Origin: Falsiroseomonas bella
GTDB taxonomy: Bacteria > Pseudomonadota > Alphaproteobacteria > Acetobacterales > Acetobacteraceae
Direction of reading: 5' to 3'
Length of the DNA stretch: 64,000 bases
Assembly (NCBI RefSeq): GCF_003173615.1
Contig: NZ_QGNA01000003.1
Coordinates: 558,001 to 622,000 of the forward strand
Shown: in pieces, positions 42,514 through 57,716 of the stretch
How the letters are laid out: each line of letters starts with the position of its first letter
How positions within the stretch are numbered: position 1 is the stretch's first letter
Position numbers and translations under genes: made by a program
The notes under the pieces: generated by a model
Database searches by the model: none
The model's input: the letters and a program-made list of their open reading frames with translations, nothing else
What the model was told of the DNA's origin: nothing

Positions 42514-42525
42514 TTGTCCGGACAA
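42514..42525. promoter_or_regulatory. Operator palindrome A, TTGTCCGGACAA
   Basis: Perfect 12-base palindrome centred at 42519/42520, 47 bases before the maleate-isomerase-like gene. Its TTGTCC could itself be the -35 of a promoter whose -10 would be near CTAGCC (42536). One of five such sites. Confidence 0.7.
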
Positions 42526-42566
42526 AAGCGGCGCGCTAGCCTGCGGGCGACGGGAAGGATCGCCCC

Positions 42567-43316
42567 ATGACGGACAGCCTCGGCTGGCGCCGCAAGTTCG
42601 GCGTCATCGCGCCCTCCACCAACACCTCCGTGCAGCCGGAATTCGACGCCATGCGGCCCCCCGGCGTCACGAACCATTTCGGCCGCATCAGCATCCCCAA
42701 CATGAAGCTCGCCAACGACCCGGATTTCAGCGCGCTGATGGACGCGATCCGCGGCACCATCATGGATTGCGTGGATTCCGTGATGTCCTGCGAGCCCGAC
42801 TACCTGGTCATGGGCATGTCCGCCGAGACCTTCTGGGACGGGCTCGAAGGCTCGGTCGAGCTCGAGAAGCGCATCGAGGCGCGGGCCGGCGTGAAGGTGG
42901 CGATGGGCTCCGACGCCTGCCGCGCCGCGCTGCGCACGCTCGGGCCGGACATCACCCGCATCGCGGTGATCACCCCCTACCAACCCGTGGGTGACAGGCA
43001 GGTGGTGCGGTTCTTCAACGACTGCGGCTACGAGGTGGCGGCACTGAAGGGGCTGAAATGCGAGAGCCCGGTCGCCATCGCCCATGTCTCCGAACGCACG
43101 CTGCGCGACGCCATCCTGGAGCTGAACGATTCCTCGGTGCAGGCGATCGTGCAGGTCGGCACCAACCTGGCCATGGCGCGCCTTGCCGCCATCGCCGAGT
43201 TCTGGCTCGACAAGCCGGTGATCGCCATCAACACGGCCACCTATTGGTGGGCGCTGCGGCAGAACGGCATCCAGGACAAGGTCCAGGGCTTCGGAGCCCT
43301 GCTCGAGAAGCACTGA
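42567..43316 (+). CDS. Maleate isomerase / AMDase family protein lacking both catalytic cysteines
   Basis: A 249-residue member of the same superfamily as the gene at 35.9 kb: N-terminal FGVIAPSTNTSVQPEF, ITRIAVITPYQPVGDRQVVRFF, and NTATYWWALRQNGI are typical. The two active-site positions differ: where the family has G-C-T/S the sequence is G83-M84-S85, and the second Cys site reads V197-G198-T199-N200. Racemase or isomerase chemistry needing two cysteines is therefore unlikely; hydrolytic or binding roles are possible. It is followed 5 bases later by the GntR gene and preceded by operator A, so it is autoregulated with the regulator. Confidence 0.82.
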   Translation: MTDSLGWRRKFGVIAPSTNTSVQPEFDAMRPPGVTNHFGRISIPNMKLANDPDFSALMDAIRGTIMDCVDSVMSCEPDYLVMGMSAETFWDGLEGSVELEKRIEARAGVKVAMGSDACRAALRTLGPDITRIAVITPYQPVGDRQVVRFFNDCGYEVAALKGLKCESPVAIAHVSERTLRDAILELNDSSVQAIVQVGTNLAMARLAAIAEFWLDKPVIAINTATYWWALRQNGIQDKVQGFGALLEKH

Positions 43317-43321
43317 GACGC

Positions 43322-44062
43322 ATGTCGCCGCGCGACGTCACGCCGCGCGCCCCGCTCTACGCCCGCATCGAGCAGCGGCTGCGCGACGCGATCGCCGAAG
43401 GGCGGTATGGCGTGGGTGCGCTGCTGCCCACAGAGGCCGAGCTCTGCGCCACGCTCAAGGTCTCCCGCCACACCGTGCGGGAGGCGCTGCGTCGCCTGGT
43501 GGAAGCCGGGCTGGTCGAGCGGCGGCAGGGTGCCGGCAGCATCGTCATCGCACGCGAGCCGCCGCGCGGTGAGGTCTTCGGCATTCCCAGCATCGACGGC
43601 TTGATGCGCTACGGCGACGACACGCGGCTGCTGATCAACCACCGCGGCATGGCCCCGCTCGGCCGTGAGGAAGCGGCGCTGGCCCAGGGCGAGGTCGGTG
43701 AGATGTGGCTTTCGGTGCAAGGGCTGCGCATCGGCCAGGATGGACGGCCGCTCGCCACCACCGACATCCTGATCCATCCGCGCTTCGCCGCGATCGGGCC
43801 GGACCTGCCGGAGCGCGGCGCGATCCACCACGCCATCGAACGGCGCTTCGGCGTGGAGGTCGCGGAAGTCGTCCAGGAGATCTCGGCCGGCCCCCTCCCC
43901 GCCGCCGCCGCCGACGCGCTGCGCCGCAAGAGACGGGCGACCGGCATGCTGCTGATGCGGCGCCACGTGCTGACGGATGGGCAGACGCTGCTGGTCTCGC
44001 GCAACTGGCACCCGGCGGAGGGCTTCACCTACGCCATGCGGCTGCGCCGGCAGGAGGGCTGA
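43322..44062 (+). CDS. GntR-family regulator, HutC/UTRA subfamily
   Basis: A 246-residue repressor-type regulator. Winged helix-turn-helix at about residues 11-76 (PLYARIEQRLRDAIAEGRYG, PTEAELCATLKVSRHTVREALRRL), then a UTRA ligand domain (about 90-240) with typical LFVTRNWHPA-like ending (LLVSRNWHPAEGFTYAMRLR). It lies 5 bases after the isomerase-like gene and just before operator B. It is the only regulator gene between 34 and 64 kb, so it is the best candidate to bind the five palindromes. ATG 43322 was chosen as the first with full family similarity. Confidence 0.9.
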   Translation: MSPRDVTPRAPLYARIEQRLRDAIAEGRYGVGALLPTEAELCATLKVSRHTVREALRRLVEAGLVERRQGAGSIVIAREPPRGEVFGIPSIDGLMRYGDDTRLLINHRGMAPLGREEAALAQGEVGEMWLSVQGLRIGQDGRPLATTDILIHPRFAAIGPDLPERGAIHHAIERRFGVEVAEVVQEISAGPLPAAAADALRRKRRATGMLLMRRHVLTDGQTLLVSRNWHPAEGFTYAMRLRRQEG

Positions 44063-44094
44063 GACTTCACGCGCGGCGCGCCGCGCGCTAGGCA

Positions 44095-44106
44095 ATGTCC
44101 GGACAA
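44095..44106. promoter_or_regulatory. Operator palindrome B, ATGTCCGGACAA
   Basis: Core TGTCCGGACA perfect (44096-44105), centred at 44100/44101, 23 bases before the deacetylase start codon. Preceded by GCTAGGCAAT, a possible -10 region. Confidence 0.7.
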
Positions 44107-44123
44107 GTTCCGGGGAACCCGCC

Positions 44124-44996
44124 ATGTGGCCGGATGAGGCGCGCCTCGCGCTCAGCATCGTGGTGAATGTCGAGGAAGGGGCCGAGATGTCGCTGCGCGA
44201 CGGCGACAAGGGGCCGGAGCCGGTTGACGAGCTCGGCGTCCACCTCAAGGTGCCGATCCGCAACTTCGCGAACGAGTCCAACTACGAATACGGCATCCGC
44301 GCCGGCTGGCCGCGCGTGGACGCCATCCTGAAGAAGCACGCCATCCCCGCCACCTTCACCGCCGCGGCGATGGCGCTGGAACGCGCGCCGCAGATCGGCC
44401 GCGCCATCGCAGCCGGTGGCCACGAGCCCTGCAGCCATGGCTGGCGCTGGATCCACCAGTTCTCCTACAACGAGGAACGCGAGCGCGACTTCGTGCGCAA
44501 GGCGGTGGAGAGCATCCGCGCCACCACGGGCGAACGCCCGCTCGGCTGGCTGTCGCGCTACCTGCATTCGCCGCGCCTGCGCCGCACGCTGGCGGAGGAA
44601 GGTTTTCTGTACCACATGGACGACTTCTCGGACGACGTGCCGCGCTGGGATGTCGTGGAGACGGATGCCGGGCCGCGCGCCATCATGCTCGTGCCCTATG
44701 CGCTCGACACCAACGACATGAAGTTCTGGCTTGCGCCCGGCTACACGCCGGAGCAGTGGCTGGACTACGCCGTCGAGACCTTCGAGGTGCTGTGGGAGGA
44801 AGGCGCATCGGCGCCGCGCATGATGTCGCTCGGCCTGCATCTGCGCATCATCGGCCGCCCCGGACGCATCCGCGCCTTCGACCGCTTCGTGCAGCACGCG
44901 CGCAGCAAGGCCGGCGTGTGGTTCGCCACCCGGCTGCAGATCGCGCGCGCCTTCGCCGCCCACACCCCCGCCCCCGCGGAGCCCGCCGCACGATGA
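44124..44996 (+). CDS. Polysaccharide-deacetylase-fold hydrolase (PuuE / cyclic imide hydrolase type)
   Basis: A 290-residue metal-dependent hydrolase. The sequence LSIVVNVEEGAEMSLRDGD, the NYEYGIRAGWPRVDAILKKHAIPATFTAAAMALER stretch and HEPCSHGWRWI match the subgroup containing allantoinase PuuE and the cyclic imide hydrolase, which open ring amides, rather than chitin deacetylases. Metal His residues lie in HEPCSHGW. A start within operator B's control region at ATG 44124 gives family length. Its stop overlaps the MmgE/PrpD start (ATGA). Confidence 0.8.
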   Translation: MWPDEARLALSIVVNVEEGAEMSLRDGDKGPEPVDELGVHLKVPIRNFANESNYEYGIRAGWPRVDAILKKHAIPATFTAAAMALERAPQIGRAIAAGGHEPCSHGWRWIHQFSYNEERERDFVRKAVESIRATTGERPLGWLSRYLHSPRLRRTLAEEGFLYHMDDFSDDVPRWDVVETDAGPRAIMLVPYALDTNDMKFWLAPGYTPEQWLDYAVETFEVLWEEGASAPRMMSLGLHLRIIGRPGRIRAFDRFVQHARSKAGVWFATRLQIARAFAAHTPAPAEPAAR

Positions 44997-46378
44997 GCTA
45001 CGACGTCACCGAAGCCCTGGCGCAGCACGCGGCGCGCGTGCGCTTCGCGGATCTCAGCGCGTCAGCCATCGCGCGCGCGAAAACCTTCCTCCTGGACACC
45101 ATCGGCGTCGGTGTCGCCGGCAGCTCCGGCACGGGCGTCGCGCAGGTGCTCGAACTCGCGCGCTCCTGGGGACCGGGCGACGAGGCGACCGCCTGGGTCG
45201 GCGGGCACCGCATGTCGGCGGGATCGGCCGCCATCGCCAATGCCTATCTGATCCACTGCCTGGAATTCGACTGCGTCCATGAAGGCGCGGTGGTGCATCC
45301 GATGGCGACGCTGCTGTCCGCGCTGATGGCCTGGTCGGAACGCGAGGCCGCGCGCGGCCGTCCCGTGGACGGCAAGCGCTTCCTGGCCGCGATGGCGGTC
45401 GGCGTGGATGTCGCGGGCAATCTCGGCATGGCGACGGATGCGCCGCTGCGCTTCTTCCGCCCCGCCACCGCCGGCGGCTTCGGCGCCACCGCGGCGATCG
45501 GCAACCTCGCCGGCTTCGACGCCGGGACGATCCGCAGCGCCTTCGGCCACATGTACGCCCAGACCTGCGGCACGATGCAGGCGCATGTCGAGGGCTCGCC
45601 GGCGCTGGGGCTGCAGATCGGCTACAATGCGCGGGGCGCGATCGGGGCCACGGACCTCGCCGCGGCGGGCCTGACAGGCCCGCTCGACATCTTCCACGGC
45701 CGCTACGGCTACTACGTGCTGATCGAGGACGGGCAGTTCCACCCGGAACGCGTCGCGGAACGCCTCGGCAAGCGCTGGGAGATCGAGCAGCTTTCGCACA
45801 AGCCCTTCCCCTCCGGCCGCCTGACGCATGGCCTGGTGCACGCGCTGCGCGACATGATGCGCGAGCACGGCTTTGCCGCCGACGACGTCGCGGAGGTGGT
45901 CTGCTACGCGCCGCCGCTGGTGCGCCGCCTGGTCGGCCGCCCGCTCGTGCCCGACCCGGCGTCGAACTACGCCAAGCTCTGCCTGCCCTTCGTCGGCGGC
46001 GTCTGGCTGGCGCATGGCGCCTGCGACGTGCCGCATTTCCGCGGCGAGGCGCTGCGCGATCCCCGCGTGCACGCCTATGCCGCGCGCATCCGCCACGAGC
46101 CGGACGGCAACACCAACGAGAACGCGCTGGACCCGCAACGCTTCGTGATCACGCTGAACTCCGGCGCCGTGCATGAGATGCTGCTGCCGCATGCCTATGG
46201 CCACCCGAAGGCGGCCCTCACCGAGGCAGAAAACGAAGAAAAGTTCCTGCGCTGCTGGGGCCATGCGGAGCCTGCGCTGCCACGCGACCGCGCGCATCGC
46301 GTGATCGAGATGATCGCGGGCATCGAGGCGGTGCCCGACATCGCCGCCCTGCCCGCGGTGCTCGCGGGCCGCGATTGA
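44993..46378 (+). CDS. MmgE/PrpD family protein, copy 1
   Basis: A 461-residue protein of the family that includes 2-methylcitrate dehydratase PrpD, cis-aconitate decarboxylase and iminodisuccinate epimerase. Typical stretches: FLLDTIGVGVAG, ANAYLIHCLEFDCVHEGAVVHP, AMAVGVDVAGNLGMA, RFFRPATAGGFGATAAIGNLAG, SHKPFPSGRLTHG, and the C-terminal HPKAALTEAENEEKFLRCWG. The reaction is not predictable from sequence; substrates are usually tri- or dicarboxylic acids. Coupled to the deacetylase by overlap. Confidence 0.87.
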   Translation: MSYDVTEALAQHAARVRFADLSASAIARAKTFLLDTIGVGVAGSSGTGVAQVLELARSWGPGDEATAWVGGHRMSAGSAAIANAYLIHCLEFDCVHEGAVVHPMATLLSALMAWSEREAARGRPVDGKRFLAAMAVGVDVAGNLGMATDAPLRFFRPATAGGFGATAAIGNLAGFDAGTIRSAFGHMYAQTCGTMQAHVEGSPALGLQIGYNARGAIGATDLAAAGLTGPLDIFHGRYGYYVLIEDGQFHPERVAERLGKRWEIEQLSHKPFPSGRLTHGLVHALRDMMREHGFAADDVAEVVCYAPPLVRRLVGRPLVPDPASNYAKLCLPFVGGVWLAHGACDVPHFRGEALRDPRVHAYAARIRHEPDGNTNENALDPQRFVITLNSGAVHEMLLPHAYGHPKAALTEAENEEKFLRCWGHAEPALPRDRAHRVIEMIAGIEAVPDIAALPAVLAGRD

Positions 46379-46414
46379 CCGCCCGCCGGGGCGCGCTAAT
46401 TTGTCCGGACAAAT
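46375..46414 (+). promoter_or_regulatory. Promoter with operator palindrome C, ATTTGTCCGGACAAAT
   Basis: The best of the five sites: a perfect 16-base palindrome at 46399-46414, centred 24 bases before the acyl-CoA dehydrogenase start. A promoter TTGACC (46375-46380) with TAATTT (46397-46402, 16-base spacer) overlaps it, so a bound protein would block the -10 region. Confidence 0.75.
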
Positions 46415-46430
46415 GCCGCGGGAGGCCGCC

Positions 46431-47591
46431 ATGGACGTGAACATCGCCCGCCAGTCCGAGGAGGACGACGCCCTTCTCGACGTGATCGAGAAATGGCTGG
46501 AACGCGACGTGCGGCCGCATGTGCTGCGGCTGGAGCATGCGGACGAATACCCGCATGAGATGGTCGCGCAGATGAAGGAGCTCGGCCTGTTCGGCGCGAC
46601 CATCCCGGTCGAGTATGGCGGCCTCGGCCTGTCTGCCACGACCTACGCCAAGATCGTCGAGAAGATCGCCGAGACCTGGATGTCACTCTCCGGGATCTTC
46701 AACAGCCACCTCATCATGGCCGCCATCGTCACCCGCATGGGGACGGAGGAGCAGAAGCGGCAGTGGCTGCCAAAATTCGCCGCCGGCGAGATCCGCGGCG
46801 GCCTCGCGCTGACCGAGCCGGACTGCGGCACGGACCTTCAGGCGATCCGCACGCGCGCGCGGCGCAGCAACGAAGGCTATGTGATCAACGGCACCAAGAC
46901 CTGGATCAGCAACGGCATCGAGGGCACCTGCTTCGCCCTGCTGGTGAAGACCAACCCGGAAGCCGAGCCGCGCCACAAGGGCATGTCCATGGTGCTGGCG
47001 CCGAAGGGTCCCGGCTTCCGCGTCGGCCGCAAGCTCGAGAAGCTCGGCTACAAGGGCATCGATTCCGCGGAGCTGGTCTTCGAAGACTACGCCGTGCCCG
47101 CCGAGAACCTGATCGGCGGCGAAGGCAAGGGGCTGCAGGCGGCGCTGTCCGGCCTGGAGCTCGGCCGCATCAACGTCGCCGCGCGCGGCTGTGGCCTCGC
47201 TTCCGCGGCGCTGAAGGATTCCGTGCGCTACAGCCAGATCCGCCGCACCATGGGCAAGCCGATCTGCGAGCACCAGGCGATCCAGCTGAAGCTCGGCGAG
47301 ATGGCGACGCGGCTGCAGGCGGCACGCCTGCTGACCTATGACGCCGCGCGCGCCTACGACAAGGGCGAGCGCTGCGACATGGAAGCCGGCATGGCGAAGT
47401 ATTTCGCCAGCGAGGCCGCGGTCGAGAACAGCATGGAAGCGATGCGCATCCATGGCGGCTACGGCTACTCGAAGGAATACCACGTGGAGCGCTACTACCG
47501 CGACGCGCCGCTGATGTGCATCGGCGAGGGCACGAACGAGATGCAGCGCATCATCATCGCGAAGCAACTCATCGCGCGGAACCCGGTATGA
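46431..47591 (+). CDS. Acyl-CoA dehydrogenase
   Basis: A 386-residue FAD enzyme that puts an alpha-beta double bond into an acyl-CoA. Motifs: ALTEPDCGTDLQAIRTRAR (130-145, flavin contact), TWISNG (157-162), RRTMGKPICEHQAIQLKLGEMA, and the catalytic base Glu366 in IGEGTNEMQ. Electrons would go to electron-transfer flavoprotein. ATG 46431 follows GGGAGG; a TTG at 46401 lies inside the operator and is not the start. It heads a long operon with the CoA-transferase, MmgE/PrpD copy 2, the CoA ligase and the amidase. Confidence 0.93.
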   Translation: MDVNIARQSEEDDALLDVIEKWLERDVRPHVLRLEHADEYPHEMVAQMKELGLFGATIPVEYGGLGLSATTYAKIVEKIAETWMSLSGIFNSHLIMAAIVTRMGTEEQKRQWLPKFAAGEIRGGLALTEPDCGTDLQAIRTRARRSNEGYVINGTKTWISNGIEGTCFALLVKTNPEAEPRHKGMSMVLAPKGPGFRVGRKLEKLGYKGIDSAELVFEDYAVPAENLIGGEGKGLQAALSGLELGRINVAARGCGLASAALKDSVRYSQIRRTMGKPICEHQAIQLKLGEMATRLQAARLLTYDAARAYDKGERCDMEAGMAKYFASEAAVENSMEAMRIHGGYGYSKEYHVERYYRDAPLMCIGEGTNEMQRIIIAKQLIARNPV

Positions 47592-48718
47592 AGCTGCAAG
47601 GCGTCCGTGTCCTCGACCTTTCGCTGTTCCTGCCGGGGCCGTATCTCACCACGGTCATGGCCGATCACGGCGCCGAGGTGATCAAGGTGGAGCCGCCCGC
47701 GGGCGAGCCGGTGCGCAGCATCGGGCTGCGCGCGAATGGCGAGAGCGTGTGGTTCCGCAACACCCATCGCGGCAAGAAGTCCGTCGTCCTGAACCTCAAG
47801 GATCCCGCTGATCTCGCGGCGCTGCACGATCTCGCGCGCAGCTGCGACGTGATGCTGGAATCCTTCCGCCCGGGCGTCGCCGATCGCCTCGGCATCGGCG
47901 CGACGGCGATGACCGCGCTCAACCCTCGGCTTGTCTACTGCTCCATCTCCGCCTTCGGCCAGGACGGCCCGCTCCGCGACCGCCCCGCGCATGACCTGGC
48001 CGTGGAGGCGCTGGCCGGCACCGTCTCGATCAGCCTCGGGCAGGACGGCAAGCCGACGCATCCGAACGTCCCGCTGGCCGACGTCACCGCCTCCCTGCTC
48101 GCGCTCTCTGCCATCCTGATGGCGCTGTATCGCCGCGAGACGACCGGGCGCGGCGACGTGATCGACATGGCGATGTTCGACGCCACGCTCTCCTGGCTGC
48201 CCAACGCCACCGGCGCCGTCTTCGCCGAGGACCGCCCCCCGCGGGTGAAGGAGGAACGCCAGTGGGGCGGCGGCGCCTTCTACAACATCTACGACACGAA
48301 GGACGGCAAGTGGGTCGTGCTCGGCGGCAGCGAGCACAAGTTCGTCGAGACCCTGCTGCATGCGCTCGGCCGCGCCGACCTGATCCCCGCCGCCTCCGGC
48401 CCGCCTGGCCCCGCGCACAAGCTGACGGAGACCTTCCTGCGAGAGACCTTCGCGACGAAGACCCGCGACGAGTGGGAAGCCTGGTTCGCCGGCCGCGATG
48501 TCTGCTTTGCGCCGGTGCTCGACCTGCGCGAGGCGCTGCACCAGCCGCACAGCCTCGCGCGCCGGATGCTCGTTCGCGATGAGGAAGGCAACCTGCATCT
48601 CGGCCTGCCGATCAAGTTCCGCGATGAACCCGGCACGCTGAACCCCAAGCTGCCGAAGCTCGGCGAGCATACGGCGGAGGCGATTGCCGAGGCGCGCAAA
48701 CGCCTGGCCGATGGCTGA
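47588..48718 (+). CDS. Class III CoA-transferase / alpha-methylacyl-CoA racemase family protein
   Basis: A 376-residue member of the CaiB/BaiF/AMACR family. Start MKLQGVRVLDLSLFLPGPYLT, CoA-contact RGKKSVVLNLK, and the active-site region AHDLAVEALAG. His135-Asp136 followed by Asp165 in VPLADVTAS resembles the racemase arrangement (GHD then Asp) as much as the transferase Asp, so either CoA transfer to a dicarboxylate or epimerisation of a methyl-branched acyl-CoA is possible. ATG overlaps the dehydrogenase stop (ATGA). Confidence 0.85.
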   Translation: MKLQGVRVLDLSLFLPGPYLTTVMADHGAEVIKVEPPAGEPVRSIGLRANGESVWFRNTHRGKKSVVLNLKDPADLAALHDLARSCDVMLESFRPGVADRLGIGATAMTALNPRLVYCSISAFGQDGPLRDRPAHDLAVEALAGTVSISLGQDGKPTHPNVPLADVTASLLALSAILMALYRRETTGRGDVIDMAMFDATLSWLPNATGAVFAEDRPPRVKEERQWGGGAFYNIYDTKDGKWVVLGGSEHKFVETLLHALGRADLIPAASGPPGPAHKLTETFLRETFATKTRDEWEAWFAGRDVCFAPVLDLREALHQPHSLARRMLVRDEEGNLHLGLPIKFRDEPGTLNPKLPKLGEHTAEAIAEARKRLADG

Positions 48719-50048
48719 GGCCTCGCTCACCGAAGGCCTCGTCGCACTGCTGGCGCGGCCCGTCGCGCCGGCGGACCGCAGGCGCGCGGTGCTGCATCTG
48801 CTGGACTGGATCGGTTGTGCTTCGGCCGGCGCGGCAAGCGAGACGGGCGCCGTGTTCCGCCGCCACGCGGCCGTGCAGCCCGCCGGTTCCGCGCGCGTGA
48901 TCCGTGGCGGCCGCACCACCGCGCGCGAGGCCGCCTTCGCGAACGGTTCCTTCGGCAACGTTCTCGAGATGGACGACGTCCACCGCGAGGCGATCCTGCA
49001 CCCCGGCCCGGTCGTGATGCCTGCGGCCCTCGCACTGGCCGCGGAGCTCGGCGCCGGCGGCCTGGCGCTGCTCGACGCCATCCTGCGCGGCTACGAGGCC
49101 GAGATCCGGATCGGCCGCGCCATGGGCGGCGCGCATTACGCGCGCTTCCACCCGACCGCGACCATGGGCCCCTTCGGCGCCGCCGCCGCCTGCGCGTCGC
49201 TGCTGTATCTCGACGCGGCCGCGACGGCCTGGGCGCTCGGCAATGCCGGCACGCAGGCCGGCGGCGTGTGGCAGTGCCGGCACGAGCCGGTGATGACGAA
49301 GCAGTTGCATACCGCCCGCGCGGCCGCGATGGGCCTGGAGGCGGCGGAGCTCGCGGCGCTGGGCCTGACCGGCCCTCGCCATATTCTTGAAGGCCCGCAG
49401 GGTGTCTTCGCGGGGCTGGCGCCCGATGCGCGACCGGAGCGCGTGCTGGCAGAGCCCGACGCCGCCTGGCTGGTGCATGCGACCAGCTTCAAGCCCTGGC
49501 CCGCCTGCCGCCACGCGCATCCGACGATCGACGCCGCGCTGGCCCTGCGCCCGAAGGTGATAGGCCGCGCCATCGCAGGCGTCACCGTCGAGAGCTATGC
49601 CGACGCGCTGGCCTTCTGCGACCGTCCCGCGCCGCGTGACACCATCGCAGCGAAGTTCTCCCTCCAGCATGCCGTGGCGGTCTGCCTGCTGGACGGCCCG
49701 CCGCCGCTCGCCGCCTTCGACCCGCCGGCGCTCGACCGCGCCGACATCACCGCGCTCCGCGGCCGCGTCACGGCGCAGGAATCGCCAGCCTTCACCACCG
49801 CCTATCCGGCGCATTTCGGCGCCGCCGTCACGCTGCGCCTGGATGACGGCACCTTGCTGCGCGAAAGCGTCGCCGATGCGCTCGGCGATCCCGAGAACCC
49901 GCTGGCCGAGGACGCCATCCTCGCCAAGGCACGCATGCTGATGGACAGCGCCGGCGTGGATGCGCAGCGTGCGGATGCGGTGATCGCGGCCGCCTTCGCC
50001 CTGCTGGACGACGCGCCCGCGATCCGCCTGAACGACCTCCTGCCCTGA
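48711..50048 (+). CDS. MmgE/PrpD family protein, copy 2
   Basis: A 445-residue second member of the PrpD-like family, clearly diverged from copy 1. Family parts: HLLDWIGCASAGAASETG, ANGSFGNVLEMDDVHREAILHPGPVVMP, YARFHPTATMGPFGAAAACASLL, TQAGGVWQ, TSFKPWPACRHAHPTIDAAL and the C-terminal GDPENPLAEDAILAKARML. His and Asp in EMDDVHREA are near the presumed active site. ATG 48711 overlaps the preceding stop by 8 bases; a TTG-type extension was rejected as running into the transferase gene. Confidence 0.86.
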   Translation: MAEASLTEGLVALLARPVAPADRRRAVLHLLDWIGCASAGAASETGAVFRRHAAVQPAGSARVIRGGRTTAREAAFANGSFGNVLEMDDVHREAILHPGPVVMPAALALAAELGAGGLALLDAILRGYEAEIRIGRAMGGAHYARFHPTATMGPFGAAAACASLLYLDAAATAWALGNAGTQAGGVWQCRHEPVMTKQLHTARAAAMGLEAAELAALGLTGPRHILEGPQGVFAGLAPDARPERVLAEPDAAWLVHATSFKPWPACRHAHPTIDAALALRPKVIGRAIAGVTVESYADALAFCDRPAPRDTIAAKFSLQHAVAVCLLDGPPPLAAFDPPALDRADITALRGRVTAQESPAFTTAYPAHFGAAVTLRLDDGTLLRESVADALGDPENPLAEDAILAKARMLMDSAGVDAQRADAVIAAAFALLDDAPAIRLNDLLP

Positions 50049-50060
50049 CCGGAGCCGCGC

Positions 50061-51452
50061 ATGGCCGTCTTCGACTACGTCACCGCGATGGACCCCGAGG
50101 GCCTGCGGCGCGACTACCCGATCGGCCCCGACTTTCCCGGCGCGCTGCGCGGCCTCTCGCGTGACGAACTCCGCGCGCGACAGGAACGCGACTTCCGGAA
50201 GGTGATGGCCTTCGCCTGGAAGGTGCCGTTCTACCAGCGGCTCTGGGGTACGAAGGGCATCGAGCCTGGCGACATAGGCGGGCTCGATGACCTCCCGAAG
50301 CTGCCCAGCTACGACAAGGCCGACATCATGGCGAGCGTGGCGGAGCACCCGCCCATCGGCGACTTCCACGGCCAGGATGCGCATCCGCCGGAGCGCCGGC
50401 CGCAGATCATCTTCCACACCACCAGCGGCACCACCGGCAAGCCACAGCCCCTGCTGTTCGGCCCGAAGAGCCGCGAGGTGCAGAACCGCCTGCTCGCCCG
50501 ACTCTACCTGGCCGCCGGCATGACGCGCGACGACGTCGTGCACAGCGTCTACGGCCACGGCCTGATCAATGGCGGCCATTACGTGCGGGAGACGGTGCAA
50601 CACTGGGTCGGCGCCCGCTTCATGTCGGCAGGCACGGGCACGGAGACGCGCAGCGCGCAGCAGGTCTTCATCATGAAGGAATTCGGCGCAACCTGCCTCA
50701 TCGGCTTCGCAGACTACATCAAGCGGCTTTCCGAAGTGGCGCGCGAGGAAGGCTTCGTCCCCGGCCGCGACATCCCCATCCGCCTGATCTGCGCCCATCT
50801 CGGCAGCGAGAGCCAGGCGAGCCTCTCGGCCGCCTGGGGCGGTGCCGCGGTGTATGACTGGTACGGCGTCGGCGACACCGGCATCATCGCCGGCGAGTTC
50901 CCGGACCGCACGGGCATGCATGTGATGGAGGATGCGCATGCGCTGGAGATCGCGGACCCCGACACCGGCCAGCCGGTGGAGCGCGGCCGCCTCGGCGACA
51001 TGATCTGCACCTGCCTCTTCAAGGACGACATCTTCCCGATCATCCGCTTCAACACGCATGACGTGACGGAGGAAGTGGCGGGCGCGAGCCCCCTCGGCAT
51101 CCCCTTCCGGCGCATCAAGGGCTTCCTCGGCCGCAGCGACAACATGGTGAAGCTCCGCGGCATCAACCTGTTCCCAACCGGCATCGGCGCCCTGCTGGTC
51201 GAGCATTGCGAGGCCGCGACCGGCGAGTTCATCTGCCGCGTGCGGCGCGACGGCGCGCGCGATGCGATGACGGCGCATCTCGAAGTCCGCGGCGAGCGCG
51301 CGGACGGCCTGCGCGAGACGCTCGAGGCGGTGCTGAAGACGCGCCTCGGCGTGGAGGTGGCGGTTGCGCTGGAAGCGCCCGGCAGCCTCGCCGCGCTGAC
51401 CCAGGTGGAAAGCCGCCAGAAGCCCATCCGCCTGCTGGACGAGCGCAAGTGA
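50061..51452 (+). CDS. Phenylacetate-CoA ligase-like AMP-dependent synthetase
   Basis: A 463-residue adenylate-forming enzyme of the PaaK type: FRKVMAFAWKVPFYQRLW, phosphate loop HTTSGTTGKPQPLLFGP, ICAHLGSESQASLSAAWGG, WYGVGDTGIIAGE, then DDIFPIIRFNTHDVT and IKGFLGRSDNMVKLRGINLFPTGI. Such enzymes attach CoA to aryl or other carboxylic acids with ATP. It would be the committing step for the acyl-CoA dehydrogenase and hydratases here. No ring-hydroxylating paa genes are in the window, so phenylacetate itself is not implied. ATG 50061 lies 12 bases after the previous stop. Confidence 0.87.
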   Translation: MAVFDYVTAMDPEGLRRDYPIGPDFPGALRGLSRDELRARQERDFRKVMAFAWKVPFYQRLWGTKGIEPGDIGGLDDLPKLPSYDKADIMASVAEHPPIGDFHGQDAHPPERRPQIIFHTTSGTTGKPQPLLFGPKSREVQNRLLARLYLAAGMTRDDVVHSVYGHGLINGGHYVRETVQHWVGARFMSAGTGTETRSAQQVFIMKEFGATCLIGFADYIKRLSEVAREEGFVPGRDIPIRLICAHLGSESQASLSAAWGGAAVYDWYGVGDTGIIAGEFPDRTGMHVMEDAHALEIADPDTGQPVERGRLGDMICTCLFKDDIFPIIRFNTHDVTEEVAGASPLGIPFRRIKGFLGRSDNMVKLRGINLFPTGIGALLVEHCEAATGEFICRVRRDGARDAMTAHLEVRGERADGLRETLEAVLKTRLGVEVAVALEAPGSLAALTQVESRQKPIRLLDERK

Positions 51453-52639
51453 TGCACGATCGCTGGGGCATCTTCTGGCACTACGCACCACAGCCCGCGA
51501 CGGACGGGCCGCTCGCCGGCCTGACCCTGGCCGTGAAGGACAATGTGGACGTCGTCGGCATGCCGACGACGGCCGGCTTCGCCGTCCACACCGCGCGCAT
51601 GGCGACGCGGGACGCGCCCTGCGTCGCCGGGCTGCGCGCGGGGGGCGCTGCCATCCTGGGCAAGGTCGCGATGCATGAAGGCGCGCTCGGCGCCATCACG
51701 GACGAGCCGCGGCTCTGCCACAACCCGCTGCGCCATGGCTTCACGCCCGGCGGATCGTCGGGCGGATCTGGCGCGGCCATCGCCGCGGGGCTTGCGGATC
51801 TCGCCATCGGCACGGACACGATGGGCAGCGTGCGCATTCCCGCCGCCTATTGCGGCGTGGTCGGGCTGAAGCCGACGACGGGGCTCGTTTCGCGCAGCGG
51901 CGTCGTGCCGCTGTCCCCGGCCTTCGATCATGTCGGGATGCTCGCGCGCACGCCGCGTCTCGCCGCCCGCGGGCTGGAGGCGATGGTCTCCGACGACCCG
52001 ACCGACCCCGCCAGCCGGCCAGCCCCCGATGGCTGGCACGCCGTGCCGAAGGCCGCGCCCGATCTTGCCCGACTGCGCATCGGCCTGCCGGAGCCGATCC
52101 TCGCCGCGCCCATGGAACCCGCGGTCCGCGCCGCTTGGGAGGCAGCCGCGCAGCGCCTGCGCGACGCCGGCGCCATCGTCGCACCCGTCGCCGTGCGGGG
52201 CTGGGAGCCCGGCGCCGCGCGCCGGGCCGGCCTGCTGCTGATCGAAGCGGAGGCCGCCGCGCTGCACGAAGCGCTGATCGCCGACCCCACCGCGACCACG
52301 CCGGGCTTCCGCGCCGCGCTGCAATACGGGCGCGAAGCCGGCACGGTGCGGCTCGCGCGCGCGATGTTCCGACTGGCGGAGGTGCGCGCGGGCGCGCTCC
52401 GTGCGCTCGACGCCTGCGACCTGCTGCTGATGCCCACGGCGCCGCAGCGCGCCTTCGCCTTCGGCGCGGCGCCGCCGCCGGACCAGGCGGATTTCACCGC
52501 GCTTGCCAATATCGCCGGCCTGCCGGCCATCGCGCTTCCCTGGCCGACGGAGGATCTGCCCGCCTCCGTCCAGCTCGTCAGCCACGCCTACACCGAGGCA
52601 CTGCTGGTCGGCGTGGCGGAGGCGCTCAGCGCGCCCTGA
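51452..52639 (+). CDS. Amidase (amidase-signature family)
   Basis: A 395-residue Ser-Ser-Lys amidase. Catalytic Lys29 in AVKDN, the glycine-serine loop GGSSGGSGAA (100-109, cis-Ser103) and nucleophile Ser126 in DTMGSVRIPAAYCG are all present. These enzymes hydrolyse carboxamides such as half-amides of dicarboxylic acids. It starts in the stop codon of the CoA ligase gene (TGATG) and ends the operon; its last 14 bases overlap the 3' end of the convergent crotonase gene. With the imide-hydrolase-like protein it suggests an amide or imide substrate. Confidence 0.9.
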   Translation: MHDRWGIFWHYAPQPATDGPLAGLTLAVKDNVDVVGMPTTAGFAVHTARMATRDAPCVAGLRAGGAAILGKVAMHEGALGAITDEPRLCHNPLRHGFTPGGSSGGSGAAIAAGLADLAIGTDTMGSVRIPAAYCGVVGLKPTTGLVSRSGVVPLSPAFDHVGMLARTPRLAARGLEAMVSDDPTDPASRPAPDGWHAVPKAAPDLARLRIGLPEPILAAPMEPAVRAAWEAAAQRLRDAGAIVAPVAVRGWEPGAARRAGLLLIEAEAAALHEALIADPTATTPGFRAALQYGREAGTVRLARAMFRLAEVRAGALRALDACDLLLMPTAPQRAFAFGAAPPPDQADFTALANIAGLPAIALPWPTEDLPASVQLVSHAYTEALLVGVAEALSAP

Positions 52640-53405
52640 ACACCGGCGCGCGCTTCGCGAGGAAGGCTTCGTAGCCTTCCCGGAAATCGTCCCCGGCGAA
52701 GGCCTCGTCGAACATCGTGCGCAACTCGGCCGACTCCCATTCGGCACCATCCTCGATGGCATTCGCCACGGCCTTGATGGCCCGCAGTGCGGGGCGCGAT
52801 CCGGCGACCATCGGCGCGATGCGCTGCGCCACGAAATCCTCCAGCGCCTCGGCCGCGCAGACCTCCTCGACCAGGCCGATGCGCAGCGCCTCCGCGGCCT
52901 CGACCAGCCGTGCCGTGAACAGCAGGTCCTTCGCGCGCGCCGCGCCCACCGCGCGCATCAGCCGCGTGGCGTCGGCCTGGCTGTAGATCAGCCCGAGCTT
53001 CGCCGGCGTCACCGCGAACCGCGCATCATCGGCCGCAAAGCGCAGATCGCAGGCCAGTGCCAGTGCGACGCCACCGCCGACGCAGGCGCCACGGATGACA
53101 GCGACGGCCGGCTTCGGGAAGGCCGCGAGCGCCTCGACGGCCGCGCCGATCTCCGCATTCGCCCGTGTGGTGTTTTCGAGCGTCGCATAGGTCTCTGCGA
53201 ACTCGCTGATGTCCGCGCCGCCGCAAAAATGCCCGCCCGCGCCTTCCAGCCGCAGCACAGCCACCGACGCGTCCCGCGCGGCCTCTGCCACCAGCGCCGG
53301 CAGTGTGCGCCACATCGCACGCGTCATCGCGTTCCGCCGCGCCGGCTGGTCCAGCAGCAGCGTCGCCACGGCGCCCTGGCGCAGCAGGCGCACCGCGCCG
53401 CTCAT
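52626..53405 (-). CDS. Crotonase-fold (enoyl-CoA hydratase family) protein with altered catalytic residues
   Basis: A 259-residue crotonase superfamily protein. CoA and oxyanion-hole stretches are present: GGHFCGGADISEF and KPAVAVIRGACVGGGVALALACDLRFA. The two glutamates of true enoyl-CoA hydratase (in GGGCE and PE) are replaced (GGGVA and TPAKLG), so hydratase activity is doubtful. Other crotonases with this pattern act as isomerases, decarboxylases or hydrolases. ATG 53405 overlaps the CMD gene's stop as ATGA, while the divergent TRAP operon begins just beyond. Confidence 0.85.
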   Translation of the reverse strand: MSGAVRLLRQGAVATLLLDQPARRNAMTRAMWRTLPALVAEAARDASVAVLRLEGAGGHFCGGADISEFAETYATLENTTRANAEIGAAVEALAAFPKPAVAVIRGACVGGGVALALACDLRFAADDARFAVTPAKLGLIYSQADATRLMRAVGAARAKDLLFTARLVEAAEALRIGLVEEVCAAEALEDFVAQRIAPMVAGSRPALRAIKAVANAIEDGAEWESAELRTMFDEAFAGDDFREGYEAFLAKRAPVFRAR

Positions 53406-53764
53406 GCCGAAAGCTCCTCGACGCGCTTCATAACCGCTGCCCCGGCCCGCGCCCAGCATTGATGGCCGTGGATGAGAATGGCGATGGACAGCGCCTCCAT
53501 GATCTGCCCCGGCGTCAGCCCGGCGCGCAGCCCTGCCTCCGCATGAGCCACCGCGCCCTCCACATGGCCGGCGGCCACGTCCAGCACGATGAAGACGAGC
53601 TCCTTCTGGGCCAGCGGCAGGTGGCCTTCGGGCGGCGGGCGATACGCCGCCTCGCGGGCCGCCAGATAGGCCGCGAAGGCCTCCGGCGCGTGGCGCCGCA
53701 ACAGCGCGACGCTCTCCGGCACCTGGCCGATGGTGCCGTCGAAATGCCGTTCCGCCTCATTCAT
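53402..53764 (-). CDS. Small CMD/AhpD-like protein
   Basis: A 120-residue protein of the carboxymuconolactone decarboxylase fold: LPLAQKELVFIVLDVAAGHVEGAVAHAEAGLRAGLTPGQIMEALSIAILIHGHQCWARAG. The usual CxxC is absent; only one Cys (in GHQCW) remains, so it is probably not an AhpD peroxidase partner. It is the first gene of a two-gene unit with the crotonase, transcribed divergently from TRAP system 2 across operator D. Confidence 0.8.
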   Translation of the reverse strand: MNEAERHFDGTIGQVPESVALLRRHAPEAFAAYLAAREAAYRPPPEGHLPLAQKELVFIVLDVAAGHVEGAVAHAEAGLRAGLTPGQIMEALSIAILIHGHQCWARAGAAVMKRVEELSA

Positions 53765-53835
53765 GGGCTGTCCCCGCCTGCCTTACCGGCAACCTATCCG
53801 CCCCGCGCTCCGCGGCGCCAGACGGCGCGGGCGAT

Positions 53836-53847
53836 TTGTCCGAACAA
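53836..53847. promoter_or_regulatory. Operator palindrome D, TTGTCCGAACAA (one mismatch)
   Basis: Centre 53841/53842 in the 144-base divergent gap between the CMD-crotonase unit and TRAP system 2, so one site can serve both. A promoter-like TTGTCA (53851) with TTAGGT (53874) follows, pointing to the TRAP genes. Confidence 0.65.
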
Positions 53848-53908
53848 CCGTTGTCAGCGCCAGGGACGCATGGTTAGGTCTGGCCAGGGAGATCCAGGAG
53901 GACGAGAC

Positions 53909-54910
53909 ATGCAGCGACGCGACCTCATGCGGGCGGCCGGCGGCCTGAGCCTGGCCGGCGTTATCGGCGGCAAGGCGTCCGCGCAGTCCGCGACGCGCTG
54001 GGATGTGTCCATTCCCTGGGGCCCCTCGGAATTCCATACCGTCAATGCCGGCCGCTTCGCGACTGCCGTGCGGGAAGCGACGAACGGCGCGGTGCAGATG
54101 ACCGTGCATGCCGGCGGCTCGCTCGGCGTCCGCGCGAACGAGACGGTGCGCGCCGTGGGCGACGGCGTGGTGCCCATGGCGGAGATGGCGGGCTTCCAGA
54201 ATGTCGGCGACGTGCCGATGCTCGGCATCGAAAGCATCCCCTTCCTGATCGCCAGCTACGACGAGCTGGCGACCATGCATTCCCTCGTCCGCCCCACCTG
54301 GGAGCGCGAGCTGGAGCGTCGGAACAACGTCGTGCTCTACGTCGTGCCCTGGCCGATGCAGTGCATGTATTTCAAGAAGCCGATCAACACCGCGGCCGAC
54401 CTGCGCGGCATCCGCATGCGCACCTACGACCGGGTGACGGCGGAGATGGTCACGCGCCTCGGCATGGTGCCGCAGCAGCTCACCAACCCCGATGTCGTGC
54501 CGGCGCTCGCCTCCGGCCGCGTGGATGCGGTGATGACCAGCGGCACCACCGCCGTCGCGCAGCGCTACTGGGAATTCCTGAAGCACACCTACGTCACCAA
54601 CCACCTCTGGGCGTCCAACCTGATGGTGGTGAACCGGGAGAGCTGGAACCGTCTGCCGCAGGCCACGCGCGACACCATCATGCAGCTCGCGAAGCGCATG
54701 GAGCCGGAATTCTGGAACGTCTCGAAGGGCGAGCACGACCTGCGCATGGAGGAGCTGAAGCGCAACGGCATGACGGTGGCGCAGCCCGCCCCCGCCCTGC
54801 TGCAGGCGCTGCGCCAGGCCACCGCCACGATGGCGGATGACTTCGCCCGCACGAACGCGCCGGCCGGCCCGATCATCCAGCAGTTCCGCCAGCGCGTCGG
54901 CCGGGCGTGA
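53909..54910 (+). CDS. TRAP transporter solute receptor (DctP family), system 2
   Basis: A 333-residue periplasmic receptor. Signal peptide MQRRDLMRAAGGLSLAGVIGGKASA with an Arg-Arg pair (possible Tat export). Features: IPWGPSEFHTVNAGRFATAV, LGVRANETVRAVGDGVVPMAEM, LRGIRMRTYDRVTAEMVTRLGM (ligand-binding Arg), PALASGRVDAVMTSG. GGAGGACGAG precedes the ATG. It heads dctP-dctQ-dctM and a symporter gene, all overlapping by 4 bases. Divergent in sequence from receptor 1. Confidence 0.88.
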   Translation: MQRRDLMRAAGGLSLAGVIGGKASAQSATRWDVSIPWGPSEFHTVNAGRFATAVREATNGAVQMTVHAGGSLGVRANETVRAVGDGVVPMAEMAGFQNVGDVPMLGIESIPFLIASYDELATMHSLVRPTWERELERRNNVVLYVVPWPMQCMYFKKPINTAADLRGIRMRTYDRVTAEMVTRLGMVPQQLTNPDVVPALASGRVDAVMTSGTTAVAQRYWEFLKHTYVTNHLWASNLMVVNRESWNRLPQATRDTIMQLAKRMEPEFWNVSKGEHDLRMEELKRNGMTVAQPAPALLQALRQATATMADDFARTNAPAGPIIQQFRQRVGRA

Positions 54911-55467
54911 CGAGCGGCGATGACGCGCGCGCCGCGCCGCCCCCCCTGGCGGCGCTGCTGCGCGGCATCGACCTGCTCTGCGCCGCCGGCGCGGTGGTCG
55001 CCGCCGTCTCGGCGGCGCTGCTGGCGCTGATCCTGATCACCGAGGTGATCGCGACATCCTTCCTCGGCTGGTCGCAGCCCTGGGCGGTGGAATACGCGAT
55101 CTACCTGCAATGCTTCGTGCTGTTCTGCGGCGCGGGCTGGACGCTGCGGCAGGGCGGGCATATCCGCGTCGGCATCCTGCTACAGGCGCTGGGGCCCGGC
55201 GCGGCCAGGCTACTCGACCTGCTCGGCACCACCTTCGCCCTCGGGATCCTGGGCTTCGCAACCTGGGCGCTGTGGCAGCAGCTGCTGCGCACGGTGGAGT
55301 TCGGCTCGACCTCCTACTACCCGATGGGCACGCCGCTCTGGATCCCGCAGGCGCTGCTGACGCTCGGTGTCACGCTGCTGCTGCTCGCCTTCTTCGCGCG
55401 GCTCTTGCGGCTGCTGGTCGGCCTGCGGCCCGACCTCGGCGCGGGCTATGGCGGCGGCGCCGAATGA
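54907..55467 (+). CDS. TRAP transporter small membrane subunit (DctQ), system 2
   Basis: A 186-residue four-helix membrane protein (helices at about 18-40, 55-78, 98-118, 138-160), with the loop LRQGGHIRVGILLQALGPGA typical of DctQ. GTG start at 54907 overlaps the receptor stop as GTGA. No hairpin separates it from its receptor gene, unlike system 1. Confidence 0.87.
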   Translation: MTSGDDARAAPPPLAALLRGIDLLCAAGAVVAAVSAALLALILITEVIATSFLGWSQPWAVEYAIYLQCFVLFCGAGWTLRQGGHIRVGILLQALGPGAARLLDLLGTTFALGILGFATWALWQQLLRTVEFGSTSYYPMGTPLWIPQALLTLGVTLLLLAFFARLLRLLVGLRPDLGAGYGGGAE

Positions 55468-56759
55468 CGGGTCCGCTCGCCCTCGTCCTCGGCATGCTCG
55501 TCGTCACCCTGGCGGGTGGCGTGTGGGTCGGCGTTGCGTTGATGTCCATCGGAGTCGTCGCGCTCGAGACCTTCCGCGACATGCGGGTGGACCGATTCCT
55601 CGCGGGCGACATCTGGTCCAGCAGCACGGCGGTGGAGCTCATCACCCTGCCGCTCTTCATCCTGATGGGTGAGTTGCTGTTCCACACGCGCCTGTCGGAG
55701 AACCTGTTCCGCGGCCTCTCGCCCTGGACGCGGCGGCTGCCGGGGCGGCTCGTGCATGTGAACGTGCTGGGCTGCACGCTGTTCGCCGCCGTCTCCGGCA
55801 GCAGCGCCGCCACCACGGCGACGGTCGGGCGTATCACGCTGCAGGAGCTGCTCGCACGCGGCTACGACCGGCGGCTCGCGGTGGCCTCGCTGGCTGGCGC
55901 GGGAACGCTCGGCTTCCTCATCCCGCCCTCGATCCCCCTGATCGTGTATGGCGTCGTCGCTGATGTCTCGATCCTGGAGCTGTTCATCGCCGGACTGGTG
56001 CCTGGCCTGCTGCTGGCCGCGATGTTCATGGGCTGGATCGCCTTCCGTGCCTGGCGCGACCCTTCGCTCGTGCCCCCGCAGGAGCCCGCCATCCCGCGCG
56101 CCGAGGCGATCCGGTCGCTCGCGAACCTCATCCCGATCGTCTTCCTGATCGGCTTCGTGATGGGCAGCCTCTATTTCGGCTTCGCCTCCATCACGGAAGC
56201 GGCAGCCATCGGCGTGCTGGGGGCGCTGTTCGTCGCGATCGGCCAGCGCACGCTGACGCTGCACGGCCTGTGGCAGGCGCTGCTCGGCACAGTGAAGACC
56301 TGTTCGATGATCGGCCTGATCCTGGTGGGCGCGCTGTTCCTCTCCAAGGCAATGGCGCGCCTCGGCCTGCCGGCCGAGGTTGCGAACGAGATCCAGTCCT
56401 GGGGACTGCATCCCTACACGCTGATCCTCGTGCTGCTGCTGTTCTACCTGCTGCTGGGCTGCGTGCTGGACGGGCTCTCGGCCATCGTGATGACGCTGCC
56501 CGTCACGCTGCCGCTGGCCGTCGCGGCCGGTTTCGACCCGGTCTGGTTCGGCGTCTTCCTCATCATCACCATCGAGATGGCGCAGATCACCCCGCCGGTC
56601 GGCTTCAACCTGTTCGTCATCCAGGGCCTGACACGCGACGGCATCTTCCGCATCGCCGGCTGGGCCTGGCCCTTCTGCGCGATCATGATGGTCTTCACCG
56701 CGCTGATCACCGTCTTCCCGGAGATCGTGACCTTCCTGCCGCATTCCACGCGCGGATGA
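55464..56759 (+). CDS. TRAP transporter large membrane subunit (DctM), system 2
   Basis: A 431-residue permease with about 12 helices. Motifs: TLPLFILMGELLFHTRLSENLFRG, GCTLFAAVSGSSAATTATVGRI, GAGTLGFLIPPSIPLIVYGVV, TEAAAIGVLGALF, MAQITPPVGFNLFVIQG. ATG 55464 overlaps the dctQ stop (ATGA). It is coupled to the downstream symporter gene by the same kind of overlap. Confidence 0.92.
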   Translation: MTGPLALVLGMLVVTLAGGVWVGVALMSIGVVALETFRDMRVDRFLAGDIWSSSTAVELITLPLFILMGELLFHTRLSENLFRGLSPWTRRLPGRLVHVNVLGCTLFAAVSGSSAATTATVGRITLQELLARGYDRRLAVASLAGAGTLGFLIPPSIPLIVYGVVADVSILELFIAGLVPGLLLAAMFMGWIAFRAWRDPSLVPPQEPAIPRAEAIRSLANLIPIVFLIGFVMGSLYFGFASITEAAAIGVLGALFVAIGQRTLTLHGLWQALLGTVKTCSMIGLILVGALFLSKAMARLGLPAEVANEIQSWGLHPYTLILVLLLFYLLLGCVLDGLSAIVMTLPVTLPLAVAAGFDPVWFGVFLIITIEMAQITPPVGFNLFVIQGLTRDGIFRIAGWAWPFCAIMMVFTALITVFPEIVTFLPHSTRG

Positions 56760-57676
56760 GCGCGCTGATCCGGCGCCATGGCATGGCGCTGATCGCGGCG
56801 GGGGCGCTGCTCGGCATCGCGGTGCCACCGCTTGCCGCCACGATGCGGCCCTGGCTGCTCTGGATCTCGCTGGCCGTGATGACACTTGCGCTGCTGCGGG
56901 TGGAGCCGGCGGCGCTCGTCGGCGTGCTGCGGCGGCCGCGCCTGGCGCTGCTGGTGCTGGCCTGGGTGACACTCGGCGTGCCGGCGCTGGTCTATGCGCT
57001 GCTGGCGCCCTTGCTGGCAGGCGGCAGCGCCTTCCTCGCCGCGGCCGTGCTGATCGCCGCGACACCCTCCGTGATGTCGGCCGCGGTTTTCGCGATCCTG
57101 CTCGGCGCCGATGCCGCGCTGCTGACGGTCGTGGCGATACCCTCGAATGCCTTGGCGCCGGTCTTGCTGCCGGCCGTCGCAGCCTTCATGGGTGTGTCCG
57201 CGCAGGTGGATCCCTGGGGGATGGCGCTGCGCCTGGCCGTGCTGGTCTTCGGCAGCTTCGCGCTGGCGGGGCTCGCGATCCGGCTTGCCGGGCGCCCTGC
57301 GCTGCGCAGCGCCGCACCCGTGCTCGACACCTGGATCGTCGTGCTGGTGACGGCCTCGGCGATCCCCTGCATGGACGGCGTGGGCGAGGCGCTGGCGGCG
57401 CGCCCGCTCGGCTTCCTGCTGATGCTGGGCTTCGCGCTCGGGCTGAACCTGGCGCTGCAGGCCATCGGCTTCGTGGTGTTCCTGCCGGCCCCGCGGGAGG
57501 GCGCGCTCTCCGCCGGCCTGGTCAGCGGCACGCGCAACATGGTGCTGCTGCTGGCGGCACTGGGCGATCCCGGGGAGAGCGACATCGGCCTGATCGTCGC
57601 GGCGGCGCAGCTTGCGCTCTTCGTCATGCCGGTGCTGGTCGCGCCCGCCTATCGCCGGTTGCGCCGCCGCACTTGA
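56756..57676 (+). CDS. Putative membrane transporter, bile acid:sodium symporter-like
   Basis: A 306-residue hydrophobic protein with about nine or ten helices, resembling the SBF/BART superfamily (for example AAATPSVMSAAVFAILLGADAALLTVVAIPSNALAPVL and SAGLVSGTRNMVLLLAALG, the crossed-helix motif region). Its ATG overlaps the dctM stop, so it belongs to the TRAP system 2 operon. A second secondary transporter behind a TRAP set may serve export or a related substrate. Family assignment is by pattern only. Confidence 0.65.
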   Translation: MSALIRRHGMALIAAGALLGIAVPPLAATMRPWLLWISLAVMTLALLRVEPAALVGVLRRPRLALLVLAWVTLGVPALVYALLAPLLAGGSAFLAAAVLIAATPSVMSAAVFAILLGADAALLTVVAIPSNALAPVLLPAVAAFMGVSAQVDPWGMALRLAVLVFGSFALAGLAIRLAGRPALRSAAPVLDTWIVVLVTASAIPCMDGVGEALAARPLGFLLMLGFALGLNLALQAIGFVVFLPAPREGALSAGLVSGTRNMVLLLAALGDPGESDIGLIVAAAQLALFVMPVLVAPAYRRLRRRT

Positions 57677-57701
57677 CGCCGCGCACAGCCGGCGGCACGG
57701 A

Positions 57702-57716
57702 ATTGTCCGGACAAAT
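57702..57716. promoter_or_regulatory. Operator palindrome E, ATTGTCCGGACAAAT
   Basis: Core TTGTCCGGACAA perfect (57703-57714), centre 57708/57709, 23 bases before the MaoC start. A TTGACG at 57673 may be the -35. Confidence 0.7.

Follow-up and report, generated by a model that had tools for sequence, protein, structure and literature searches.

A 12-base palindrome, TTGTCCGGACAA, recurs in five intergenic gaps of a 64,000-nucleotide stretch of the Falsiroseomonas bella genome (contig NZ_QGNA01000003.1, positions 558,001 to 622,000; this whole stretch is called the window below), and comparison across genomes indicates that it is very probably the operator for a GntR/UTRA protein (gene at 43322-44062), which would use it to control a dicarboxylate module. 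The assignment to this protein is strong because relatives without the protein are also without the site. The comparison shows that selection acts on the element, that it lies in promoter gaps, and that genomes have or lack it along with the regulator.

Palindrome sites in the window and the genome

The palindrome occurs in exact form at 42514, 46401, and 57703 of the window and with one mismatch at 44095 (ATGTCCGGACAA) and 53836 (TTGTCCGAACAA). A search of the 64 kb at one mismatch or fewer found no copy beyond these five, designated sites A to E, as had been claimed in an earlier, sequence-only reading of this DNA. That reading had also placed each of the five in a gap before a gene, which is where we find them, and had put the last at 57702, which should be 57703. 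Its 16-base perfect palindrome starting at 46399 (site C) is present, and the distance of 23 to 24 bases that it gave from the centers of B, C, and E to the start codons was measured as 23.5, 24.5, and 23.5 bases ahead of the predicted starts at 44124, 46431, and 57732. With up to three mismatches allowed, the window count (14 copies) is at the level of chance (mean, 12.4), so copies with more than one mismatch are given no weight.

Site A, 42514..42525, no strand: TTGTCCGGACAA; precedes the amdase-like gene and gntR; shares bases with a -35-like TTGTCC, and CTAGCC follows 16 bases further.
Site B, 44095..44106, no strand: ATGTCCGGACAA; in the gap between gntR and the PuuE-like gene, with a CTAG-type -10-like box ahead of the site.
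Site C, 46399..46414, no strand: 16-base perfect palindrome ATTTGTCCGGACAAAT; upstream of the acyl-coenzyme A (acyl-CoA) dehydrogenase operon; lies against a -10-like box that follows TTGACC.
Site D, 53836..53847, no strand: TTGTCCGAACAA; between the divergent cmd/ech and dctP2 operons, directly before a + strand -35-like TTGTCA.
Site E, 57703..57714, no strand: TTGTCCGGACAA; upstream of maoC.

The whole genome (5,944,573 bases in 14 contigs) holds four exact and six one-mismatch sites, and a reversed control pattern gives none. Half of the ten lie within a 15.2-kb part of the window (probability bound, ~8e-7). The random scatter that the sequence-only reading had named as counting against it is not seen, nearly all sites being in promoter gaps. 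Its description of the regulon as "compact" fails, since the other five sites precede transport and catabolic operons on different contigs. Allowing up to two mismatches gives 37 sites in the genome compared with 75 for the control; extension of the regulon to such sites was rejected, since a count below the control means that no additional members can be read from them.

Conservation of the sites in close relatives

The sequence-only reading had proposed comparing the same gaps in relatives that carry an orthologous GntR gene. In four close relatives, taken by identity of the ortholog (G095, 75%; G195, 69%; G152, 65%; G087, 55%), the site is kept in each gap present: in gaps A, B, C, and E in all four and in gap D in all three whose fetched contigs include it. 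The amdase gene is absent from G195 and G152, and there site A stands immediately upstream of gntR. The core of site D is CCGAAC in the window's genome and G095 and CCGTAC in G195 and G152, and two of the four relatives have a sixth site, ahead of mmgE2. Outside the window, the five regulator-bearing genomes contain 61 sites at one mismatch or fewer, 57 between called genes and 4 inside them, in fetched sequence that is 92% coding; among the 57, three at contig ends share the same flanks, in an apparent transposase frame, and a fairer count is ~54. In G231, which belongs to the same genus and has no regulator, both matches are inside called genes.

Relatives also have a one-mismatch site upstream of tripartite ATP-independent periplasmic (TRAP) transport system 1 (L067:9048; L125 to L127, ~4.7 kb before gntR); no site at one mismatch or fewer was found upstream of that system in the window.

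Co-occurrence of regulator and sites

Five of 249 genomes of the family have a GntR ortholog of at least 55% identity, and they contain 4, 3, 5, 6, and 5 exact copies of the palindrome (23; control, 0). Among the remaining 244 genomes the count is 22, compared with 20 for the control, which is background; four of these sites are in G006, and eighteen genomes have one each. The same co-occurrence is seen in 15 genomes of the genus: the 11 with an ortholog of 65 to 100% identity have 179 sites at one mismatch or fewer (control, 24), and the 4 without it, among which we counted G250 with its 36% match only, have 9 (control, 16). The clearest case is an ATP-binding cassette (ABC) binding-protein gene (C9:521031) that is unlinked to gntR and present in all 15 genomes at 83 to 100% identity. 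The operator is upstream of this gene in 11/11 genomes with the regulator and in 0/4 without it, a split expected by chance once in 1365 by simple counting, and in the four regulator-less genomes promoter-like elements near the place of the operator are still visible by eye. Together, the conservation of the gaps, the co-occurrence of regulator and sites, and the absence of the operator from this unlinked target where the regulator is missing support the gene at 43322 as that of the regulon's regulator, as the sequence-only reading had supposed.

The four G006 sites (L078 to L081) are ahead of amidase, isochorismatase-like, and ABC genes, and the GntR homologs of that genome reach only 35 to 37% identity. 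A second GntR homolog is carried by G257, G254, G252, and G249 (L236 to L239), and in G249 an exact site lies <1 kb from it.

Sites beside distant homologs

GTDB genomes were scanned with regulator peptides, without use of the motif, which gave at least 445 confirmed relatives; the best 80 loci were retained and represent Falsiroseomonas, Roseomonas, Methylobacterium, Azospirillum, Burkholderiales, Pseudomonas, and others. These loci are not independent, as they include close relatives and near-identical bins. The pattern NTGTNCGNACAN was picked after variants had been seen, and its control was the reversed pattern, of equal degeneracy; a 16-mer symmetry filter was too strict, and 12-mers were used instead. 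In the best 80 loci, NTGTNCGNACAN occurs 130 times in 1.33 Mb (control, 10), in 72 loci (control, 9), and at -250 to +150 bases of gntR in 47 (control, 0). Distant homologs of 34 to 45% identity also have such sites. Neighboring genes among these loci, several of which are short, encode CaiB (67), acyl-CoA dehydrogenase (59), MaoC (39), and mmgE2-like (33) proteins.

On a plasmid of Azospirillum brasilense, genes for a CoA ester lyase, MaoC, MmgE/PrpD, acyl-CoA dehydrogenase, CoA transferase, and GntR are together; the lyase/MaoC gap contains a site, and a second site is ahead of dctP. A Tistrella mobilis plasmid has sites ahead of polysaccharide-deacetylase and acyl-CoA dehydrogenase genes; this organism has another locus, beside a 41% homolog, where a site lies between MmgE/PrpD and CoA transferase genes. 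A Pseudosulfitobacter plasmid has one site ahead of MaoC, and two looser matches on annotated plasmids are inside genes. The regulator is also carried by bins titled Klebsiella pneumoniae, Phormidium willei, Candidatus Marinimicrobia, and Candidatus Planktophila (L188, L163, L144, L177, and L185); these have typical proteobacterial neighbors or high G+C content, and the titles are perhaps wrong or the contigs contaminants.

Form of the proposed operator and its position relative to promoters

The HutC subfamily (HutC, NagR/YvoA, and DasR) shares with this system a GntR helix-turn-helix joined to a UTRA domain, a palindromic operator, and a site beside the regulator's own gene. According to PMC4494728, GT and AC are four bases apart in most HutC-type operators, with exceptions, and three or sometimes two bases apart in FadR-type operators. 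The GT-N4-AC spacing of the palindrome thus follows the rule for most HutC-type sites; its half-sites resemble the TKGT/ACMA of the FadR subfamily, from which it differs in the spacing and in having a UTRA protein. The protein is not HutC proper, scoring 89.4 of the 220 bits of the TIGR02018 equivalog. Positions 28 and 39 of the residue-base rules in PMC4494728 fall by eye on Ala39 and His50.

Promoters were aligned and read by eye. Of 57 oriented rows, 56 entered the count; the row for site C of G152, truncated where its stretch ends, was left out, and some divergent sites were counted in both directions. Operator C has a TTGAC-like -35 box upstream in most rows and abuts a -10-like box. Operator B abuts a CTAG-type box in 4/5 genomes, with a poorer -35, and operator E does likewise in 3/5. 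In 4/5 genomes, operator A shares bases with a -35-like TTGTCC, which a CTAGC(C/T)-like box follows at a distance of 16 bases. Site D and the ABC-operon site are just upstream of a -35-like box. An A is found at position -2 in 39 of the 56 rows. At most promoters, this placement suits a repressor; at the D and ABC-operon promoters, the protein could instead activate.

Alternative explanations

Several observations weigh against the assignment of the palindrome to this protein or against a simple repressor. The four regulator-less genomes are scattered on the gene tree, and the independent losses are few (four changes on the best tree, of which two are forced by well-supported branches); a paired test with two supported pairs cannot reach significance and has the same label entered twice, regulator and operator coinciding in all 15 rows. 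The 15-genome counts by themselves cannot tell operator gain from loss. G231 has neither regulator nor cluster and so cannot separate the two, which is why the genus-wide ABC-operon comparison was used instead. G006 has its four exact sites without a close ortholog, its seven UTRA genes being on other contigs, and the second homolog (38 to 40%) in four genus members may share sites, so that two regulators may be using one operator there. Eight of the best 80 loci (L133, L135, L139, L161, L163, L177, L180, and L200) have no site. The core of the operator is CG (CCGG; MCGK across homologs), in contrast with the TA (MTAK) given as usual for HutC operators in PMC4494728; a TA core is not a defining feature of HutC-type regulators. 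Finally, operators upstream of -35, as at D and the ABC operon, could serve activation.

This last point bears on whether the protein might be mainly an activator or a dual regulator, which we consider unlikely though worth keeping in mind. Operators just upstream of a -35-like box are where activators can work; in contrast, those at A, B, and C overlap or abut -35- or -10-like boxes, and NagR and similar HutC-type proteins are described as repressors in PMC4333415.

It is improbable that the outlying sites are served by a paralog with the same operator, leaving this GntR protein only the window cluster. The sites beside homologs of 34 to 45% identity and the second homolog in four genus members give this idea some ground, yet only one match at E <= 1e-20 exists in the window's genome, which nevertheless has five outlying sites, and the outlying ABC-operon site tracks this ortholog in 15/15 genomes. 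Quite improbable, too, is the binding of the palindrome by a different regulator, either one of the other UTRA proteins or a FadR-type protein, with gntR merely a target. The genome does have five UTRA genes, and the G006 sites would fit such a protein; however, the other four UTRA genes all lack a site within 100 kb, the sites follow this ortholog over the 15 genus genomes and adjoin its homologs in 47 of the best 80 loci, and the four bases between GT and AC differ from the FadR-type spacing. That copies with at most one mismatch are chance matches or pieces of a dispersed repeat, as the noise at two or more mismatches and three identical one-mismatch matches of relatives in a transposase-like frame at contig ends might suggest, is hardly credible and was rejected on the genomic control (zero in the window's genome), the conservation of the gaps, and the regulator-linked ABC operator, the 12 bases being constant between variable flanks and the sites lying in gaps and covarying with the regulator.

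Predicted target genes and the proposed module

The genes around the window sites are listed below. The sequence-only reading had called the GntR/UTRA gene the only regulator nearby, and it is the sole one among the proteins scanned at 42.5 to 59.2 kb.

42567..43316, + strand: amdase/maleate-isomerase-like protein, target A.
43322..44062, + strand: GntR/UTRA (HutC-type) regulator, 246 amino acids; GntR 80.2 bits (cut-off, 27), UTRA 46.5 bits (cut-off, 23.8).
44124..44996, + strand: PuuE-like polysaccharide-deacetylase-family protein, target B; 257.7 bits (cut-off, 424.6).
44993..46378, + strand: MmgE/PrpD protein 1.
46431..47591, + strand: acyl-CoA dehydrogenase, target C.
47588..48718, + strand: CaiB-type CoA transferase.
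48702..50048, + strand: MmgE/PrpD protein 2; start possibly 48711.
50061..51452, + strand: PaaK-like CoA ligase.
51449..52639, + strand: amidase-family protein.
52626..53459, - strand: crotonase (enoyl-CoA hydratase/isomerase family); start uncertain.
53402..53764, - strand: CMD-family protein.
53909..54910, + strand: TRAP substrate-binding protein DctP2, target D.
54907..56759, + strand: TRAP DctQ2 and DctM2.
56756..57676, + strand: protein of 306 amino acids without a Pfam match; same place in relatives.
57732..58250, + strand: MaoC hydratase, target E; closest to RipB/Ich, 237 bits (cut-off, 340).

The 306-amino-acid protein, encoded just after the TRAP genes and ahead of site E, is retained in three relatives at 66 to 81% identity. 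In the ten nearest relatives among the best 80 loci (L121 to L130), a second CaiB gene stands between the acyl-CoA dehydrogenase and CaiB genes (compare L067:17519-18709); in the window (47588-48718) these two genes overlap and the second CaiB gene is absent.

The outlying sites have the following neighbors.

C7:170750: between genes for an old yellow enzyme (OYE)-type flavin oxidoreductase and an FAD oxidoreductase.
C7:419624: between genes for an amino-acid-type ABC binding protein and a thiamine-diphosphate enzyme.
C9:335880: flanked on one side by a peptide-type ABC operon and on the other by an OYE-type gene that has hydantoinase-like genes after it.
C9:520943: upstream of an ABC operon that also has MmgE/PrpD and hydantoinase B genes.
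C14:18391: flanked by an operon for a tripartite tricarboxylate transporter and by an M20 amidohydrolase gene.

The C9:335880 site is within a long called open reading frame that we take to be spurious. Pfam confirmed the two oxidoreductases, the thiamine-diphosphate enzyme, both amino-acid-type binding proteins, MmgE/PrpD, hydantoinase B, and M20; the remaining labels come from translations judged by eye. In three relatives, amdase/maleate-isomerase-like proteins (by eye) are encoded directly behind outlying sites (L095:3298-4041 in G195, L098:4058-4822 in G152, and L105:766-1554 in G087), and two of these genes diverge from ones for TctC-like binding proteins, which hints that the substrate class is shared.

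The GntR protein probably controls its own gene as well as its neighbors; autoregulation is likely because site A precedes the amdase-gntR pair and site B is behind gntR. A dimer would occupy the two half-sites and, without ligand, block RNA polymerase; binding of a catabolic intermediate by the UTRA domain would release the repressor. A dicarboxylate would be taken up by the TRAP system, perhaps entering as an imide or amide, and would be broken down by CoA transfer (CaiB), dehydrogenation (acyl-CoA dehydrogenase), and hydration (MaoC), as in methylsuccinate/itaconate degradation. We infer the entry via a cyclic imide or amide; a known cyclic-imide hydrolase belongs to the polysaccharide-deacetylase family. 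The substrate may be an imide or amide, a maleate-like compound, or a methylsuccinate-like one.

An itaconate/methylsuccinate cluster (ich, mcd, mmgE, ict, and ccl) has been characterized in Cupriavidus necator and Pseudomonas aeruginosa (PMC12290011); neither "LysR" nor "regulator" occurs in the main text of that paper, so regulation of the cluster is not treated there. The window module has the MaoC, acyl-CoA dehydrogenase, MmgE/PrpD, and CaiB families in common with it, and a CitE-like lyase is found in relatives. The window MaoC, over its full length, stays under the Ich cut-off (NF038241), and the CitE-like proteins of G087 (229.5 bits) and A. brasilense (227.3 bits) are closest to RipC/Ccl (cut-off, 375). 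No Ccl lyase (NF038242) was found in the window's cluster, the best match in the genome, on another contig, scoring 255 of 375 bits. The PuuE-like, amdase-like, PaaK-like, and amidase genes are extra. The predicted module is a relative of the itaconate/methylsuccinate cluster; it need not be the same pathway, since its proteins fall short of the equivalog cut-offs, a lyase is absent from the window's cluster, and there are additional genes.

Novelty and implications

In the PubMed Central (PMC) text searched, the 12-mer, a variant, and the inner 10-mer were not found as a bacterial operator, which may nevertheless be listed in supplementary tables or regulon databases, as these were outside the search; the 12-mer returned a single unrelated Drosophila paper, the variant returned nothing, and the inner 10-mer returned 18 papers, none of them bacterial by title. 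No paper in the text searched combined Roseomonas, GntR, and regulon, and no report of this regulon by module or host was found. "Itaconate degradation" with "GntR" returned two papers, neither with such a regulator as its topic, judged by title, and a search for cyclic imides listed chemistry papers only. A HutC-type catabolic regulon is of a well-known kind; the operator, module, and breadth described here appear to be unreported in the literature searched.

There is, in our judgment, an even chance that, across alpha-, beta-, and gammaproteobacteria, a widespread, uncharacterized HutC-type branch has its own operator (approximately WTGTMCGKACAW) and controls a module of the itaconate/methylsuccinate-like (2-substituted succinate) kind, and that, in Falsiroseomonas and its kin, a local repressor has come to coordinate the uptake of organic acids through 10 to 23 sites per genome, with unlinked promoters losing the operator along with the regulator. 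The finding would assign an operator to a large group of unnamed GntR/UTRA proteins, whose regulons would become readable from genome sequence. Uncharacterized MmgE/PrpD, CaiB, acyl-CoA dehydrogenase, and TRAP or TctC-type genes are tied to one signal, narrowing the search for their substrate, and the genus offers a natural case of a regulator and an unlinked operator missing together.

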